The notes below the pieces were generated by a model that worked only from the letters and a program-made list of their open reading frames with translations, had not been told where the DNA came from and searched no databases. DNA of 45,220 nt from Deltaproteobacteria bacterium (GTDB lineage Bacteria > Desulfobacterota > Binatia > Binatales > Binataceae): positions 3,228 to 48,447 of the forward strand of contig JAJYYI010000003.1 of assembly GCA_021801125.1 (NCBI GenBank). The letters are read 5' to 3'. Positions 21,055 through 27,121 of this stretch are shown here, in pieces (position 1 is the first letter of the stretch; every line of letters begins with the position of its first letter). The position numbers and the translations under genes were made by a program.

Positions 21055-21948
21055 GTGGCTGAGATTTGGCCTAATTTTTTCGTAGTCGGTGCGGCAAAAG
21101 CGGGTACCACGTCGCTTTACGCCTATCTGAGGCAGCATCCCCAGGTGTTTCTCCCCAAGATAAAGGAGCCGCATTTTTTCGCCCATGTTCGCCCTTCACC
21201 TGAGATGAAGCATCTGTACGCGGCAATCAACGATCGCTCGACCTACTTGAGGCTCTTTCGCAACGCGGAGGGTTATCGGGCGATCGGCGACGCCAGCCCG
21301 TCGTATTTATGGGACCCGGAGGCCGCAAATCGGATTCGCCGCTCCGTTGGCGAAGCCAAAATTGTGATTACCTTGCGCGACCCTGTGGAACGAGCTCACT
21401 CGCATTATCTGGCGGACGTACGCGAAGGGGTGCACGACCTGAGCTTTTACGACGCCTTGCGTCAAGACATGGCGCGTCCCAAAAAAGGCTGGGCGGTGTC
21501 GCTCCTATATGTGGAGTTGGGGCAGTACGCCGCTCAAGTAAGGCGCTACCTCGACCTCTTCGGCCCCGCGCAGGTAAAGGTTGTGCTCTTCGAGGAATTG
21601 AAACGTAACAGCGCCAATGTGCTGAAGGAATTGGCTCAGTTCCTGGAGGTTGATCAGGGGGCAGTCGAACAAATCAACACCAGCGAAGTGCATAACTCTT
21701 ACGCGGCGCCGCGCGGTAAGTGGGCACAACGAATGGCTGGCGCGAAATTCTCGCGCTTGTTGGGAAAAACGGTAATTCCCCATGAGGTTGGGCAGTTCAT
21801 CTTCGAGCGGGTGCTCCTGAAGCAGGCGCCCAAGCCGAAGATTGAACCCGAAGCCAAGCGTCTCTTATGCGAGATTTACGAGCCTGAAATCCGGGAGCTA
21901 GAGGGTATTTTGGGACGTCCCCTGCCCGAATTACGCCGCTCGTGGTAG
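21055..21948 (+). CDS. Sulfotransferase family protein
   Basis: The product is a 297-residue PAPS-dependent sulfotransferase. FFVVGAAKAGTTSLYAYL carries the 5'-phosphosulfate loop with K15. TLRDPVERAHSHYL carries the 3'-phosphate residues R108 and S116. KIKEPHFF is typical of the heparan-sulfate-like bacterial branch. It transfers sulfate to a hydroxyl or amine of a lipid, glycan or metabolite; the acceptor is unknown. The GTG start has a GGGGGA stretch about 13 bases upstream. The preceding 270 bases (20785-21054) contain nothing recognisable. It converges on the selenoprotein gene, with 26 bases between the stops. Confidence 0.92.
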   Translation: MAEIWPNFFVVGAAKAGTTSLYAYLRQHPQVFLPKIKEPHFFAHVRPSPEMKHLYAAINDRSTYLRLFRNAEGYRAIGDASPSYLWDPEAANRIRRSVGEAKIVITLRDPVERAHSHYLADVREGVHDLSFYDALRQDMARPKKGWAVSLLYVELGQYAAQVRRYLDLFGPAQVKVVLFEELKRNSANVLKELAQFLEVDQGAVEQINTSEVHNSYAAPRGKWAQRMAGAKFSRLLGKTVIPHEVGQFIFERVLLKQAPKPKIEPEAKRLLCEIYEPEIRELEGILGRPLPELRRSW

Positions 21949-21974: not shown

Positions 21975-22874
21975 CTACGGCCGCGGCGGCTCGAAACATA
22001 CGGCACACGTAGCGCCGTCGCAGGACTCAGCCAGCACGCGGTCCTCGTCATATTGATACTGCGGAGTGTCGACGCGCGGCAGCCGAGAATCCGTCGAGAA
22101 AGTCGTACTTTTCCAATCCTCGCTGTCGCTCCATTTAAAGGGCAGCATCTTGACTGACCCGGGTTGTTTGAGCGTTACGAACGCCTGCAGCGCTTCAATC
22201 ATGATCGCACGCTGCAACTGCGGCTCGCCAACCTTGCCTGCTGTCTGACCGAGCGGATAGTCGAGGAAGGCCGCGCGAGGCGGGTTCACCGCCTGGGTTA
22301 TGTCGAGCGCGCTCGTCATGCAGAGCGTGGCAATTCCCGCAGCTTCGATCTGGCGTGCGATCAGTCCTACGGACTGATGGCAGACGGGTCAAACAGGCAC
22401 CAGCAAAGCCAAGTCGGCCTTTTCTTCCTGGGCGCGCGCGACCAGGGCCGGCGCCAGTTCCGTATTCACTCGGCGGGTCGAATAGATTCCCCCCATGAAG
22501 GTGTAGGCGTGGGAGGCAAGTTCCCCGAAAAATCCTTCTGCGGCGAGTCCGCGCAGGGTTTCAAGCGGAAACACGCACCGCAAATCGCGCCGGGCGTTGG
22601 CAAGGTCGTAGGCGAAGTGCGTCGCGCGCAGCGCGGACGCCGGCGCGTCCTTAGGGATGGCGCGATAGGAGGAGTCGTCCTTGTAATGGAACGCGACTTG
22701 TCCCGCAAGGTAAATCCCGCCGGAGGCGATGAGCATCAGGCGGCAGTCGCGCAGCGGCTTGGTCACCGGTGTCCACGGTGGCTCGGTTTCGTTGACCGTC
22801 CATCGGTAGGCCGGGTAACCCAAGCCTTGGTATAGGCATTGAATGCGCTCGATGTACCGTACGGGCTCGCCCAT
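21975..22874 (-). CDS. Selenoprotein, glycine/sarcosine/betaine reductase B family (Sec at residue 162)
   Basis: One continuous minus-strand frame of 300 codons is broken only by TGA at 22391-22389. Read as selenocysteine it gives LALLVPV-U-PVCHQSVGLIA, the U-x-x-C redox motif of GrdB-like selenoproteins. The sequence on both sides belongs to the same family: YRAIPKDAP, FYST-like GGIYSTRR before the Sec, then MTSALDIT, PPRAAFLDYPLGQTAGKVGE and QRAIMIEALQAF after it. Length is 299 residues. ATG at 22874 has GGGGA 9 bases upstream. The genuine glycine reductase partners (GrdA, GrdC/D) are absent, so it probably acts as a free-standing selenoenzyme or thiol-type redox protein. The C-terminus carries three further Cys (ESCDGATCAVCF). 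The gene lies downstream of fmdB on the same strand. Confidence 0.88.
22360..22378 (-). promoter_or_regulatory. Bacterial SECIS-like hairpin downstream of UGA
   Basis: On the minus strand, ATCAGTCC and GGACTGAT form a perfect 8-bp stem with a GTA loop. It begins 10 bases after the UGA, so the apex is about 20 bases from it. A small G-containing apical loop at that distance fits bacterial SECIS elements that recruit SelB with Sec-tRNA. The element lies within the coding sequence, as in other bacteria. Confidence 0.8.
22389..22391 (-). other. In-frame UGA, selenocysteine codon
   Basis: TGA (minus strand) separates two halves of one conserved protein without any frame change and sits exactly where the family has Sec or Cys (U-P-V-C). 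This favours recoding over a nonsense mutation. Confidence 0.85.
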
Positions 22875-23048: not shown

Positions 23049-23423
23049 TTACAGGTCGCTGTCGTCCGCGCCGCCACTCCCCGTTCCTTCGTCCGCGTCG
23101 AGGTCGCCGCCGCGTTCGAGTTCGTCGATCGCCTCTTCGAATTCCGGTCCCTGCACTTCCTCTCCCATTTCGCGTCCGATCCGTTTCATCATGCGAGCGA
23201 CGCTCTTCGGGTCATTCTCGTCCACGTCGCTATAGCGCGATGGGTCGGCGAGCGCGTCGAGGCGGTTTTCTTCGCTGCGCGGGGTGGCGAAGCGCGACAT
23301 CAGGCGGCGCATCTTGCGACTTCCACAATGGCAGCATGCTGCGTGTACCCGCTCGCTCACCCGCATCGTGAGCACGCTGGTACGCCGGCCGCACTTGTTG
23401 CACTGATACTCGTAGATCGGCAT
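23049..23423 (-). CDS. FmdB-family zinc ribbon protein
   Basis: The product has 124 residues. The N-terminal MPIYEYQCNKCGRR is diagnostic of the FmdB/CxxC-CxxC-SSSS putative regulator family. The second pair is CHCGS, so the zinc ribbon has C-x2-C...C-x2-C. The C-terminal half is very acidic (DADEGTGSGGADDSDL) and probably disordered. FmdB was named for amide-induced porin regulation, but most members are uncharacterised small metal-binding proteins. AAGGAG lies about 13 bases before the ATG. It precedes the selenoprotein gene by 174 bases on the same strand. Confidence 0.9.
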   Translation of the reverse strand: MPIYEYQCNKCGRRTSVLTMRVSERVHAACCHCGSRKMRRLMSRFATPRSEENRLDALADPSRYSDVDENDPKSVARMMKRIGREMGEEVQGPEFEEAIDELERGGDLDADEGTGSGGADDSDL

Positions 23424-23763
23424 CCGCGTTGGCGCACTCCTTGATTAGAATCACGAAAATTTTATGCTAACGCCCTGGTTTTGTGAAAATCACGAGCGCT
23501 ACTTGCTGGAAGAGAAACACGAGGAGGTAGGCCGCCGGCCGGCCGTCGCGAGACGCCCGGGGTTTCAAGGCGAGAGAGCGCCTTCCGTGTAACCGAGCCT
23601 TTAATGAGCCGGTGGCTTAAGTCAGAGTCGCGCCGTTACGCGGCCCGTCGGGCCCTCACACATCGGTTCGCCCCCGGACTTCCGGTATGATAAGAGGCGG
23701 GAGTCAGGCCGTCGATTCGGCGCCCATTTTGCGCAATTGCGGGCGGTAAAAGAGCTTCGATTG
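23424..23763. other. 340-base divergent intergenic region, no riboswitch recognised
   Basis: This region should hold the promoters of fmdB and the ECF operon. A short GC hairpin, GGCCC-GTC-GGGCC, occurs at 23642-23654. I looked for the cobalamin box, the TPP CTGAGA core and FMN-type conserved stems and found none. Confidence 0.4.
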
Positions 23764-24531
23764 ATGTGGCACGACACGCGGATGGTCGTGCTGTGCGCGA
23801 TTTCCGCCGCGCTTTATGCCGCGGTGCTCATTCCATTCAAAGTTGTCCCGCTTATTCCCGGCGTCACCGAGCTGCGTCCGGCCAACGCGATTCCGATCGT
23901 CTGCTCGTTTCTCTTCGGTCCGGCCGCGGCGTGGGGCTCCGCGATCGGCAACCTGGTGGGCGACTTTTTCGGCGGTGCGGGGCCGGGGGATTTTTTCGGG
24001 TTTTTCGCCAATCTGGCGTACGGATTTCTGCCGTACAAAGTCTGGGAAGCGATCGGCGGCAGGCACAGTCCGCTCGACCGCTCTGCCGCGGCGATTAGCA
24101 AATACATTTTCACTTGCTTCATAGCGAGCCTGCTATGCGCGGATGTCGTCGGCTGGGGCGACAATCTGCTTGGTTTGCGACCTTTCGCCGTGTTAGGCAA
24201 TCTGATCGTTTTCAACAACATGCTGGCCTCCGTGGTGCTCGCTCCCTTTCTGCTCGCCGCGATTTACCCGCGGGCACGAGCCGGCCGTTTGCTTTACGGC
24301 GACCTGATGCCGCAGGAACCGCCCTTGCGCCGCAGCGTGCGGTTGTACGGGCTTTTTCTGCTGGTGGGAGGTGGACTGTTGGCTTGGGCTGCGGGCAACC
24401 TTATCTCCGCGGGCTACTGGTTGCCGGCGTTTTTACCGGGCACGATGCTCCATGCTCCGTATAGTGGCGTGGTCGCCGTGGTCGTGAGCCCTCCGCTCGC
24501 ACTGGCAGTTCTCGGCGCATGTCTTCTGTGA
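23764..24531 (+). CDS. ECF transporter substrate-binding (S) component
   Basis: The product is a 255-residue protein with about six membrane helices. RPANAIPIVCSFLFGPAAAWG and GNLVGDFFGG resemble the S-component core, in which helix 1 carries small residues for docking on EcfT. I chose the ATG at 23764 (AAAGAG upstream); a TTG nine codons earlier is in frame. It overlaps the fused ATPase gene by 13 bases, and EcfT follows, so the operon encodes a complete group I-type vitamin or metal importer. The sequence does not match ThiT, BioY, RibU or QueT closely enough to name the substrate. Confidence 0.82.
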   Translation: MWHDTRMVVLCAISAALYAAVLIPFKVVPLIPGVTELRPANAIPIVCSFLFGPAAAWGSAIGNLVGDFFGGAGPGDFFGFFANLAYGFLPYKVWEAIGGRHSPLDRSAAAISKYIFTCFIASLLCADVVGWGDNLLGLRPFAVLGNLIVFNNMLASVVLAPFLLAAIYPRARAGRLLYGDLMPQEPPLRRSVRLYGLFLLVGGGLLAWAAGNLISAGYWLPAFLPGTMLHAPYSGVVAVVVSPPLALAVLGACLL

Positions 24532-26333
24532 AGAGTGAAAGCGGCGCGACGGCGCCGCAGCTTATCCCCGAGATCTTGCTGGAACAAGTCAGCTTTACTT
24601 ATCGCGGTGCGGACGCGCGCGCGATCGACGGCGCAAGGCTCGTTCATCGCGCAGGCGAGACGATCGCTATCGTCGGACCCTCCGCGGCGGGCAAATCGAC
24701 GCTGGTTAAGTGTCTCAACCGAATCGTCCCCGGCTTTGAGGACGGCATTCTTGAAGGCACGATCCGAATCGGTGGCCGTGAGTTGGGAGGCCAGCGCGTG
24801 TGTGACGTCGCGCCGCTGGTCGGGATGGTATTTCAAGACTTCGAGTCGCAGCTATTCTCGAGTAGCGTCGCCAGCGAGGTCGCCTTTGCGATGGAGCAGC
24901 GCCGGTTCGATCGCGCGATGATGCGCTCTCGGGTGCGTGACGCGCTTAGCGCCGTCGGCCTTGCGGGCTTTGAAGGTCGCGACCCGGCCACGCTTTCCGG
25001 CGGCGAAAAACAGCGCCTGGCGATCGCTGCAGTGATGGCGCTGCGGCCGCGCGTCATCGTGCTCGACGAGCCCACGACGGACCTGGATCCGCAGGGTCGC
25101 GCGGAAATCTTCACGTTGCTCGAGGAGCTGCGCGCGCAGGGCCTGTGCCTGGTGATTATCGAGCATGATCTCGAAGCGCTGCGCCGTTGCGACCGAATCA
25201 TTTTGCTGCGCGAGGGGAAGATCGTCGCCGACGCTGCACCTGCGGAGCTGCTGCCGCGGGTCGATTTGTTGGAGCAATGCGGCGTGCGCCCGACGGACCT
25301 GGACCGCTTGTGCCACCGCTTGCAGGTTCGCCCGCCGCTGCCGACCATCGACCATGTTGAAGCGATGATTCGCGGCAAGTACGGGATTTCGGGTGTAAGC
25401 CCCGGTTCGCTCGCGCCGAGCCTCCGTGACCCGGGAGCCGCTGCCCAGCCTGCCGCGAAAGTCGCTCGAACGCCCGCCATCGCTGGAGGTTCAGACAGCG
25501 GGGCGTGCGGAAGAGAAGACGAAGCCGGCGGGCCTGCGCTTATCGAGGCGCGCGAATTGAGCTACGCCTACCCGCACGGCAACGTCGCGCTGCACGGTGT
25601 GAGCCTGACTATCCGCGAGCGTGAGTTCCTCGCGATCGTAGGTCAAAACGGGTCGGGTAAAAGTACGCTGGCCAAACTGATAGCCGGGCTTATGCGACCG
25701 ACAACGGGCGAATTGAAGCTGCAGGGGCGCGACCGAGCCGCCTATGCGCCTGCGGAGAGCGCGCGCGAGATCGGATTTGTCTTCCAAAACCCCGACTATC
25801 AAATTTTTGCTGCTACCGTCGAGGACGAGATTGCTTTCGGCCCGCGCAACTTCGGCCTGCCCAAAGACGAGATCGCGCGCCGCGTGGAGAGCGTGCTGAA
25901 GGCGGTCGGGCTTGACCCGCTGCGCCGCAGGGATCCTTTTTTGCTGGGCAAGGGTGAGCGCCAGCGCTTGGCGGTTGCCGGCGCGCTGGCGTTAAGACCG
26001 CGCCTGCTGCTTCTCGACGAGCCCACCACCGGCTTGGACTACCGTGAGCAACGCCGCATGATGGATTTGCTCGCGGAACTGAATCGCGATGGCGTCGCGA
26101 TAGCGATCATTACCCACGCGCCGTGGCTGGTCGCCACTTATGCAAGGCGGGTCGTGATGCTGCGCGGGGGTGAGAAAGTCTTCGACGGCGCGGTGCGCGC
26201 GTTCTTTGCTCGCCAAGATTTGCTCGCCAACTCCGCATTCCGGCCGCCGGAGGTGACGGCGCTCGGTTTGCGCCTCGGTCTGCTCGCGCTCTCCGTGGAA
26301 GAGTTGGCGAATTTAATCGAAGAGCGGGGCTGA
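24519..26333 (+). CDS. Fused ECF transporter ATPase (EcfA-EcfA')
   Basis: The product has 604 residues with two complete ABC domains. Domain 1 has Walker A GPSAAGKST (53-61), signature LSGGEKQR and Walker B VIVLDEPTTD. Domain 2 has Walker A GQNGSGKST (about 374-382), Walker B LLLLDEPTTG and a signature LGKGERQR (about 475), in which LSGGE has become LGKGE. An Ala/Gly-rich linker joins them near residues 300-335. The fusion provides both ATPases of an energy-coupling factor module, as in YkoD-type proteins. The unusual second signature may make the two ATP sites unequal. TGATG overlaps the EcfT gene. Confidence 0.93.
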   Translation: MSSVKSESGATAPQLIPEILLEQVSFTYRGADARAIDGARLVHRAGETIAIVGPSAAGKSTLVKCLNRIVPGFEDGILEGTIRIGGRELGGQRVCDVAPLVGMVFQDFESQLFSSSVASEVAFAMEQRRFDRAMMRSRVRDALSAVGLAGFEGRDPATLSGGEKQRLAIAAVMALRPRVIVLDEPTTDLDPQGRAEIFTLLEELRAQGLCLVIIEHDLEALRRCDRIILLREGKIVADAAPAELLPRVDLLEQCGVRPTDLDRLCHRLQVRPPLPTIDHVEAMIRGKYGISGVSPGSLAPSLRDPGAAAQPAAKVARTPAIAGGSDSGACGREDEAGGPALIEARELSYAYPHGNVALHGVSLTIREREFLAIVGQNGSGKSTLAKLIAGLMRPTTGELKLQGRDRAAYAPAESAREIGFVFQNPDYQIFAATVEDEIAFGPRNFGLPKDEIARRVESVLKAVGLDPLRRRDPFLLGKGERQRLAVAGALALRPRLLLLDEPTTGLDYREQRRMMDLLAELNRDGVAIAIITHAPWLVATYARRVVMLRGGEKVFDGAVRAFFARQDLLANSAFRPPEVTALGLRLGLLALSVEELANLIEERG

Positions 26334-27121
26334 TGCCGATCTATCTCTACCTCAACCGTGCGACAGCTCTGCATCGGCTTCATCCGGCGGTCAAAATTCT
26401 CGCGCTGTTTGCGGTGTTCTGGTCGATCTACTGGCTGGACAACCCGGCCGCGCTCGCGCCTCTCGGGCTCATGCTGGTGATACTCGCGCAAGTTTCCGGC
26501 TCATGGTCTAACTTCTACCGGCTACGCTGGCTGCTGATCCTGATTGTGTTCTTCACAACCTTGGTCTGGGTTCTGTTCTATCGGCAGGGGCCACCATTGT
26601 TCAGAGTCGGACCCTTGCCGATCAGCCGCGCCTCGCTGGAGTTCGGCTTCGGGCGCGGACTTAAGCTTGCCGAGCTTATCGCCACGACGATTCTTTTTCT
26701 GTCCACTACCCGAGTGGAAGAATTCGCCTATGGACTCGCCTGGCTGGGCATGCCGCATCGTATCGGCTTTGCCATCACGTTGGCTTTCCGCCTGGCGCCG
26801 CTTTTCATCGACAGCGCGCTGGACGTGGTGGCTGCGCAAAGGCTGAGAGGCCACGACTTTGGTCGCGGCGGTCCGATCGCGCGGATGCGCGGGTACGCTC
26901 CGGTCATGGTGCCGGTGTTCATGGGAGCCTTGCGCAAAGCGAACAACATGGCGATGGCGCTGGAGGCTCGCGGGTTCGGCCATACCAACCGGCCGACAAG
27001 CCTCGCCGAGTATCGACTAAGGCCAGCCGACTGGGTCGGCCTGGCCGCTCTCGGCGCGTTGGCAACCGGCAGCTTCCTCGCTTACTGGTTGGGCTACGGC
27101 GCAATTAAACTCACCCATTGA
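26333..27121 (+). CDS. ecfT: ECF transporter transmembrane component EcfT (CbiQ-like)
   Basis: The product has 262 residues with four to five membrane helices. The HRLHPAVKIL start is the EcfT N-terminal helix. The coupling helices carry AQRLRGHDFGRG and ALEARGFGHTN, the two A-x-R-x-x-G motifs (ARG/ALEARG) that bind the ATPase grooves. It overlaps the fused ATPase gene as TGATG. This completes the S-AA'-T set encoded from 23764. A 6-bp hairpin (GGCTGC at 27156, GCAGCC at 27173) lies after the stop. Confidence 0.93.
   Translation: MPIYLYLNRATALHRLHPAVKILALFAVFWSIYWLDNPAALAPLGLMLVILAQVSGSWSNFYRLRWLLILIVFFTTLVWVLFYRQGPPLFRVGPLPISRASLEFGFGRGLKLAELIATTILFLSTTRVEEFAYGLAWLGMPHRIGFAITLAFRLAPLFIDSALDVVAAQRLRGHDFGRGGPIARMRGYAPVMVPVFMGALRKANNMAMALEARGFGHTNRPTSLAEYRLRPADWVGLAALGALATGSFLAYWLGYGAIKLTH

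Follow-up and report, generated by a model that had tools for sequence, protein, structure and literature searches.

A PrdB-like selenoprotein with a C-terminal CxxC tail, encoded in genomes in which no PrdA- or GrdE-type partner was found

Analyzing a 45,220-nucleotide stretch of a deltaproteobacterial genome of the family Binataceae (the window), we found that the minus-strand segment 21975..22874 is one gene for a PrdB-like selenoprotein of 299 amino acids, read in a single frame with TGA taken as selenocysteine (Sec, U). Judged by the conservation of the codon and its surroundings, UGA162 is recoded as Sec. The protein appears to belong to a known environmental selenoprotein family and to be a variant of it, marked by a redox-type C-terminal tail and by having no known partner. 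We give a probability of roughly 55% to the reading that it is a PrdB/GrdB-superfamily selenoenzyme that acts alone, without a PrdA/GrdE-type partner, and uses its C-terminal CxxC to recharge Sec.

Conservation of the in-frame UGA

Under genetic code table 11, the gene appears as two minus-strand open reading frames (ORFs), 22389-22874 (161 aa) and 21975-22319 (114 aa). Taking TGA as Sec joins them into a single frame of 299 aa plus stop, whose sole U lies at residue 162 (codon 22389..22391, minus strand) in the context LLVPV-U-PVCHQSVG. A sequence-only reading of this DNA had joined the two frames through that TGA with no change of frame, had read VPV-U-PVCHQS across it and had expected standard gene calling to split the gene; it was exact on the join and the reading is borne out, as is the split. 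The Sec codon opens a UxxC motif, U162-P-V-C165 (22380..22391, minus strand), defined by the frame with TGA as U and by an alignment (A3) in which column 162 holds C, standing for U, in 67/67 rows and column 165 holds C in 63 rows and D in 4. The rows of this alignment are 42 of 80 loci from named genomes, 24 of 30 loci from the phylum and the window protein; L047, L049, L053 and redundant loci (28 of 52 and the remainder) were left out by identity or by hand. The window protein aligns with its relatives over its full length, at up to 81% identity.

Homologues occur at 78 places in 63 of the 297 genomes of the host's phylum, and 77 of these places have at least one in-frame TGA; the lone exception, in genome G268, starts at query residue 164, past the Sec site. 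U stands at the motif in all 30 phylum loci whose site was read. Named genomes, searched with two patterns of which one had Cys at the site, hold 376 relatives; the best 80 by score, a choice that leaves room for rarer and more distant Cys forms, have UGA at the site in 80/80. In one of these loci (L031), a second TGA downstream was treated as a stop. Comparing residue 162 across homologues, as had been proposed, thus returns U throughout both samples and Cys in two alphaproteobacterial homologues, from Haematobacter and Roseomonas (CPICHQ/CPVCHQ), and this exchange of Sec and Cys is part of the support for Sec at the site.

Other motifs occur within the family. Four related loci (L036, L037, L038, and L039; also L144) form a Sec branch with UPLDHQSVG, in which Asp replaces the Cys of UxxC. 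Sec paralogues with other motifs (UPVCHVSVG and UPFCTRTVG) and longer open frames are seen at L142 and L143 and on contig C214 of genome G083 (L144). That genome has the PrdB-like family at five places, of which two lie on opposite strands with about 2.6 kb between them.

A SECIS-type hairpin within the reading frame

Just past the UGA we find a SECIS-type hairpin (22360..22378, minus strand) with an 8-bp stem and a 3-nt loop, the stem lying 10 nt and the loop 18 nt past the UGA; its form presumably fits the SECIS consensus. Fold energy, codon bias and covariation all point to it. The 55 nt beginning just before the UGA fold at -18.4 kcal/mol (z -3.0), and 0/200 shuffles are equally stable. 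The 50 nt that start at the UGA fold, on average across the window gene and 80 relatives, at -18.2 kcal/mol; resampling synonymous codons from elsewhere in these genes raises the mean to -14.6 kcal/mol (20 rounds, sd 0.30). Of the same 81 genes, 71 use GGA and none GGC for the Gly in the stem's 3' strand, whereas the Gly codons in the remainder of these genes are 14.0% GGA and 48.5% GGC; all six inner-stem base pairs are intact in 72.

Codons on the two sides of the stem change together. Among the 80 relatives, CAA (Gln) occurs with TTG (Leu) in 6/6 cases and ACC (Thr for Ser) with GGT (Gly) in 4/4, the latter all within related actinobacteria, and in four sequences the outer U-A pair is replaced by C-G. 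In 79 distinct sequences, 97.3% of cells are paired, 14 cells have changes on both sides and the covariation score is 0.106 compared with 0.054 in shuffles, and 0/500 shuffles reach any of these three values. Two further measures do not exceed the shuffles, namely the number of pairs with a change on both sides (35/500 reach the value) and the number of further pair types (198/500). Two stem pairs are unpaired in 9/79 and 7/79 sequences, and when the helix is shifted along the sequence at most 48% of cells pair. By these measures, the hairpin stem is kept through codon choice and paired changes.

Selenocysteine machinery of the host

The host assembly (150 contigs, 3.5 Mb, 96% complete, 4.2% contamination) encodes tRNA-Sec, SelA, SelB, and SelD. 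The tRNA-Sec lies on contig C72, scores 68.8 bits (gathering threshold 47) and has the anticodon tca according to ARAGORN. The selA gene is in two contig-end pieces, C42:2-733 (profile positions 1-241) and C149:12395-13009 (240-444, on a contig 13009 long), which score 320.9 and 251 bits. Gene callers would give two fragments for these selA pieces (L010 and L011; contigs C42 and C149 of genome G000). SelB (381.9 bits) and SelD (381.8 bits) are adjacent on C30, and SelD itself has one in-frame TGA (CKAAG-U-AGK). The sequence-only reading had implied a host with SelA, SelB, SelC (tRNA-Sec), and SelD and had named absence of the machinery as grounds for dropping the Sec assignment; all four were located, so that objection falls.

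A wide PrdB-like family

Among named models, TIGR04483 (PrdB) matches the window protein best, with 162.5 bits over residues 31-249, which is below its equivalog cut-off of 300 bits. Annotated PrdB proteins score 399.7 (Enterococcus raffinosus) and 310.2 (Peptoclostridium), and scores of 83-211 are seen in two further members of the tail branch and in six Sec or Cys proteins spread over four branches. Since the window protein and the scanned relatives all lie below the classical PrdB scores, we see the classical PrdB proteins as the small core of a wide PrdB-like family. The GrdH (43.1 bits), GrdF (41.7), TIGR01918 (40.5), and GrdB (39.2) models match the window protein far more weakly and under their cut-offs, which range from 65.45 to 800. 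Pfam GRDB (PF07355) gives 21 bits by hmmscan and 22.2 in a genome search that included frame neighbours, borderline against a cut-off of 22. An earlier assignment to the GrdB family therefore stands as distant homology, with the borderline PF07355 match in its favour, and gives way as to the nearest named family, which is PrdB (162.5 versus 39-43 bits).

AlphaFold2 predicts one confident domain (mean pLDDT 95.4, pTM 0.93), in which the last 20 residues are lowest, with ten-residue blocks at pLDDT 79 and 70. In the predicted secondary structure, Sec opens helix 163-178 after strand 155-159, from which we infer that it would sit where alpha/beta folds usually place a reactive nucleophile. Foldseek returned no match of the model to the PDB at E <= 0.001, and phmmer returned none against PDB sequences. 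VIA-align 2, applied to Foldseek's 1000 best chains, gave a top Z of 8.0 (7ylq_A, rmsd 3.7, 155 aligned), a range common for unrelated alpha/beta proteins. No solved structure is a clear relative, and we drew no function from these comparisons.

The C-terminal CxxC tail

Beyond the PrdB-like part, the protein continues through a stretch with PQYQ..ED to a C-terminal CxxC, C290-A-V-C293 (21996..22007, minus strand), on which the sequence-only reading was silent. A CxxC lies within the last 50 residues of 76/80 relatives (the best 80 of 376); of the others, L107 has CxxxC, and L073, L082, and L083 have neither tail motif.

A tree of 71 proteins pairs the window gene with L056 as its sister (support 100/100) and puts both inside a group of 44 rows (support 100/98), 41 of which have the tail. 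By taxon label, this group comprises metagenome-assembled genomes of Deltaproteobacteria, Binatota, Chloroflexi, Acidobacteria, Actinobacteria, Alphaproteobacteria, and Gammaproteobacteria. Outside it, in this unrooted tree, are tail-less Sec relatives, a four-member UxxD branch, the Cys pair and classical PrdB. The tail label requires 4 changes on the tree compared with a shuffled mean of 23.0, and 0/500 shuffles are as low. The tail-less rows inside the group are L029, L073, and L083; two of the three are from sulfate-reducer-type taxa (Desulfosarcina and Desulfobacteraceae), and L080, also of the Desulfobacteraceae, retains the tail. Because these three of 44 rows lack the tail, and so do all four of the Cys and classical PrdB proteins compared, the basic chemistry does not require it.

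Partner subunits, host physiology and gene neighbourhood

PF09338, which covers PrdA/GrdE-type subunits, was found in 0/30 phylum genomes with the gene (the best 30 of 63, own genome included) and in 0/40 named genomes carrying it, two sets that overlap by probably at least one genome (L062/G179). The same model is positive in 3/3 classical records, including the annotated prdA of Enterococcus, and as judged by it, which leaves room for a highly divergent PrdA, these 30 and 40 genomes have no PrdA (pyruvoyl proprotein). GrdA (PF04723) was found in none of 30 genomes, the host's own and 29 others, with a model that is positive in 2/3 classical records and negative in the Enterococcus record. 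The earlier observation that GrdA is missing thus extends from the neighbourhood to whole genomes, and its proposal that the protein works apart from classical glycine reduction is likely to hold, given that neither GrdA nor a PrdA/GrdE-type subunit was found. On these profile searches, the PrdB-like protein is probably not a subunit of D-proline or glycine reductase. Prd and Grd enzymes require a pyruvoyl subunit for activating an amino group. Since no such subunit was found, an amine of the Prd/Grd kind is an improbable substrate.

PF00115, the haem-copper oxidase family, is above its cut-off in 39/41 host genomes, own included, as would fit respiring hosts, and absent from the other two; it also covers nitric oxide reductases, so these counts are no proof of aerobic life.

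The upstream same-strand neighbour in the window is an FmdB-like zinc-ribbon ORF (23049-23423, minus strand, PF09723), whose end is 174 bp from the gene, and on the other side is a convergent sulfotransferase gene (21055-21948). The FmdB-like ORF adjoins the PrdB-like gene in the sister genome L056 too. Also in the window, at 23737-27121 on the plus strand, a QueT-like ECF S component, a double ABC ATPase and a CbiQ-type permease make up an ECF vitamin or cofactor uptake set. The window holds 156 ORFs of at least 80 aa, mostly mechanical, and among the 30 of them scanned with Pfam no prd-type cluster is seen around the gene. Eleven proteins of the window neighbourhood are common to L056 at 73-90% identity, a match that shows kinship, not function.

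For the comparison across loci, neighbours were called with a codon-based gene caller, as antisense ORFs in G+C-rich DNA had spoiled earlier clustering. A same-strand neighbour lies within 100 bp in 27/81 loci and not in the other 54. ABC transporter ATPases, the commonest neighbour cluster, occur in 24/81 loci with no fixed spacing, and no tight association extends beyond a single lineage. With 54 of the 81 loci lacking a close same-strand neighbour and no neighbour family widespread, the gene looks like a self-contained unit. We rejected the neighbourhood as a clue to the substrate, because neighbour families are lineage-bound. Fifteen loci of acidobacterial label (L086, L088, L096, L097, L099, and similar) have a same-strand gene about 650 bp downstream that is myo-inositol oxygenase-like by eye; five have a divergent gene 47 bp upstream that is MsrB-like by eye.

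Proposed mechanism and alternatives

The sequence shows UGA162 to be recoded as Sec through the in-frame hairpin and the Sec machinery of the host. In the mechanism that we propose, Sec162 would be the nucleophile that reduces the substrate, most likely a small molecule in respiring, free-living bacteria. The oxidised Sec would be resolved as a selenenylsulfide with Cys165 of UxxC; in the tail branch, the C-terminal CxxC (Cys290/Cys293) would then accept the disulfide by thiol exchange and be reduced again by a general thiol system, for instance thioredoxin. As Asp takes the place of Cys165 in four relatives, a selenenylsulfide inside UxxC is not general to the family.

The main competing account concerns the tail alone. 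It may be that the C-terminal CxxC binds a metal or mediates protein-protein contact, and that Sec162/Cys165 are recharged directly by thioredoxin or another thiol, a possibility that we regard as serious, if somewhat unlikely. The tail is short, the model is least certain there, and it is missing from some group members and from tail-less Sec relatives that retain UxxC, all of which would suit such a role. However, a zinc site would require further ligands, and only two conserved tail cysteines are seen; these have CxxC spacing, which recurs across many phyla, and stand beside a Sec active site.

The remaining alternatives concern the whole protein. That it is a true D-proline reductase PrdB using a divergent PrdA seems improbable: PrdB is indeed the best named family, and literature tables label such sequences proline reductase PrdB, but a score of 162.5 falls well short of the cut-off of 300 and of the 399.7 and 310.2 of annotated PrdB proteins, PF09338 is absent from the 30 and 40 host genomes while its control is positive, and the 30 scanned ORFs of the window include no prd-type cluster. 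We consider a GrdB-type subunit of glycine, sarcosine or betaine reductase very improbable, since the weak GrdB, GrdF, and GrdH matches that would suggest one (39-43 bits, with a borderline PF07355) face cut-offs of 65 to 800, GrdA is found in 0/30 genomes and PF09338 is not found. It is just as hard to credit a genuine stop or a sequencing error at the TGA, in a gene that is broken or encodes Cys or Trp. The standard code does give two ORFs, but UGA recurs in 80/80 relatives (best of 376) and 30/30 phylum loci from independent assemblies, next to a hairpin with paired changes and in a host with complete Sec machinery. Thus, we favour the partner-free selenoenzyme with a CxxC relay.

"PrdB" selenoproteins in the literature

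Selenoproteins labelled "PrdB" have been in print since 2005, so that "hidden", as the sequence-only reading had called this one, is too strong for the family (PMC1088965, PMC2398784). UxxC "proline reductase PrdB" selenoproteins were reported as 42 genes in the Sargasso Sea (PMC1088965) and as 235 Sec and 110 Cys sequences in the GOS data (PMC2398784), which places "PrdB" among the most numerous ocean-metagenome selenoproteins, filed as proline reductase (PMC1088965, PMC2398784). "PrdB" selenoproteins were also described in Anaeromyxobacter and Geobacter (PMC1794560), and of the 119 families or subfamilies in a 2026 review one is D-proline reductase, given as TIGR04483 with UxxC (PMC13188914). 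The GOS study uses none of the words "PrdA", "pyruvoyl" and "C-terminal" in its main text (PMC2398784), and the 2026 review does not use "PrdA" in its own (PMC13188914). Within the portions of the PrdB selenoprotein literature covered here, we found no mention of a C-terminal CxxC tail or a missing partner, and our literature search found no paper for "PrdB-like" with "selenoprotein" or for "selenoprotein B family protein".

The host genomes examined lack a known partner, and most have genes of the haem-copper oxidase family. If most ocean "PrdB" sequences are alike in this, then the proline reductase label leaves a major environmental selenoprotein without an assigned function. Some thioredoxin reductases have a mobile C-terminal redox pair. 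By analogy, we offer only tentatively the broader idea that respiring bacteria have an abundant selenoenzyme that needs no partner and has long gone under the name of proline reductase, and that its C-terminal dithiol might swing in as a built-in electron relay to recharge Sec162. If the electron-relay reading is true, the protein would carry out reductive chemistry of the Prd/Grd type on its own and in soluble form.

Comparison with known systems

The closest known system is PrdB (TIGR04483), with which the window protein shares the domain over residues 31-249, the placement of Sec, the xxC that follows it and the in-frame UGA. It differs in reading UPVCHQ where PrdB has UGTCH, in scoring below the equivalog cut-off, in a C-terminal addition of some 50 residues that includes CxxC and in that no PrdA-type partner was found in genomes carrying the PrdB-like gene. 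With GrdB, GrdF, and GrdH (PF07355), it shares distant homology and Sec-xx-Cys at the matching place, whereas it is shorter and far under the model cut-offs, and GrdA and PF09338 were not found in its host genomes. Haematobacter and Roseomonas have "selenoprotein B family" proteins that are homologous across most of the length at about 35% identity, but these have Cys for Sec and a cysteine-free C-terminal part and lie on a distant tree branch. The Sargasso and GOS "PrdB" sequences share UxxC and the family label with the window protein, although they have been treated as proline reductase in print (PMC1088965, PMC2398784). Likened by motif and label rather than by sequence, they and the window protein most likely belong to the same broad family.
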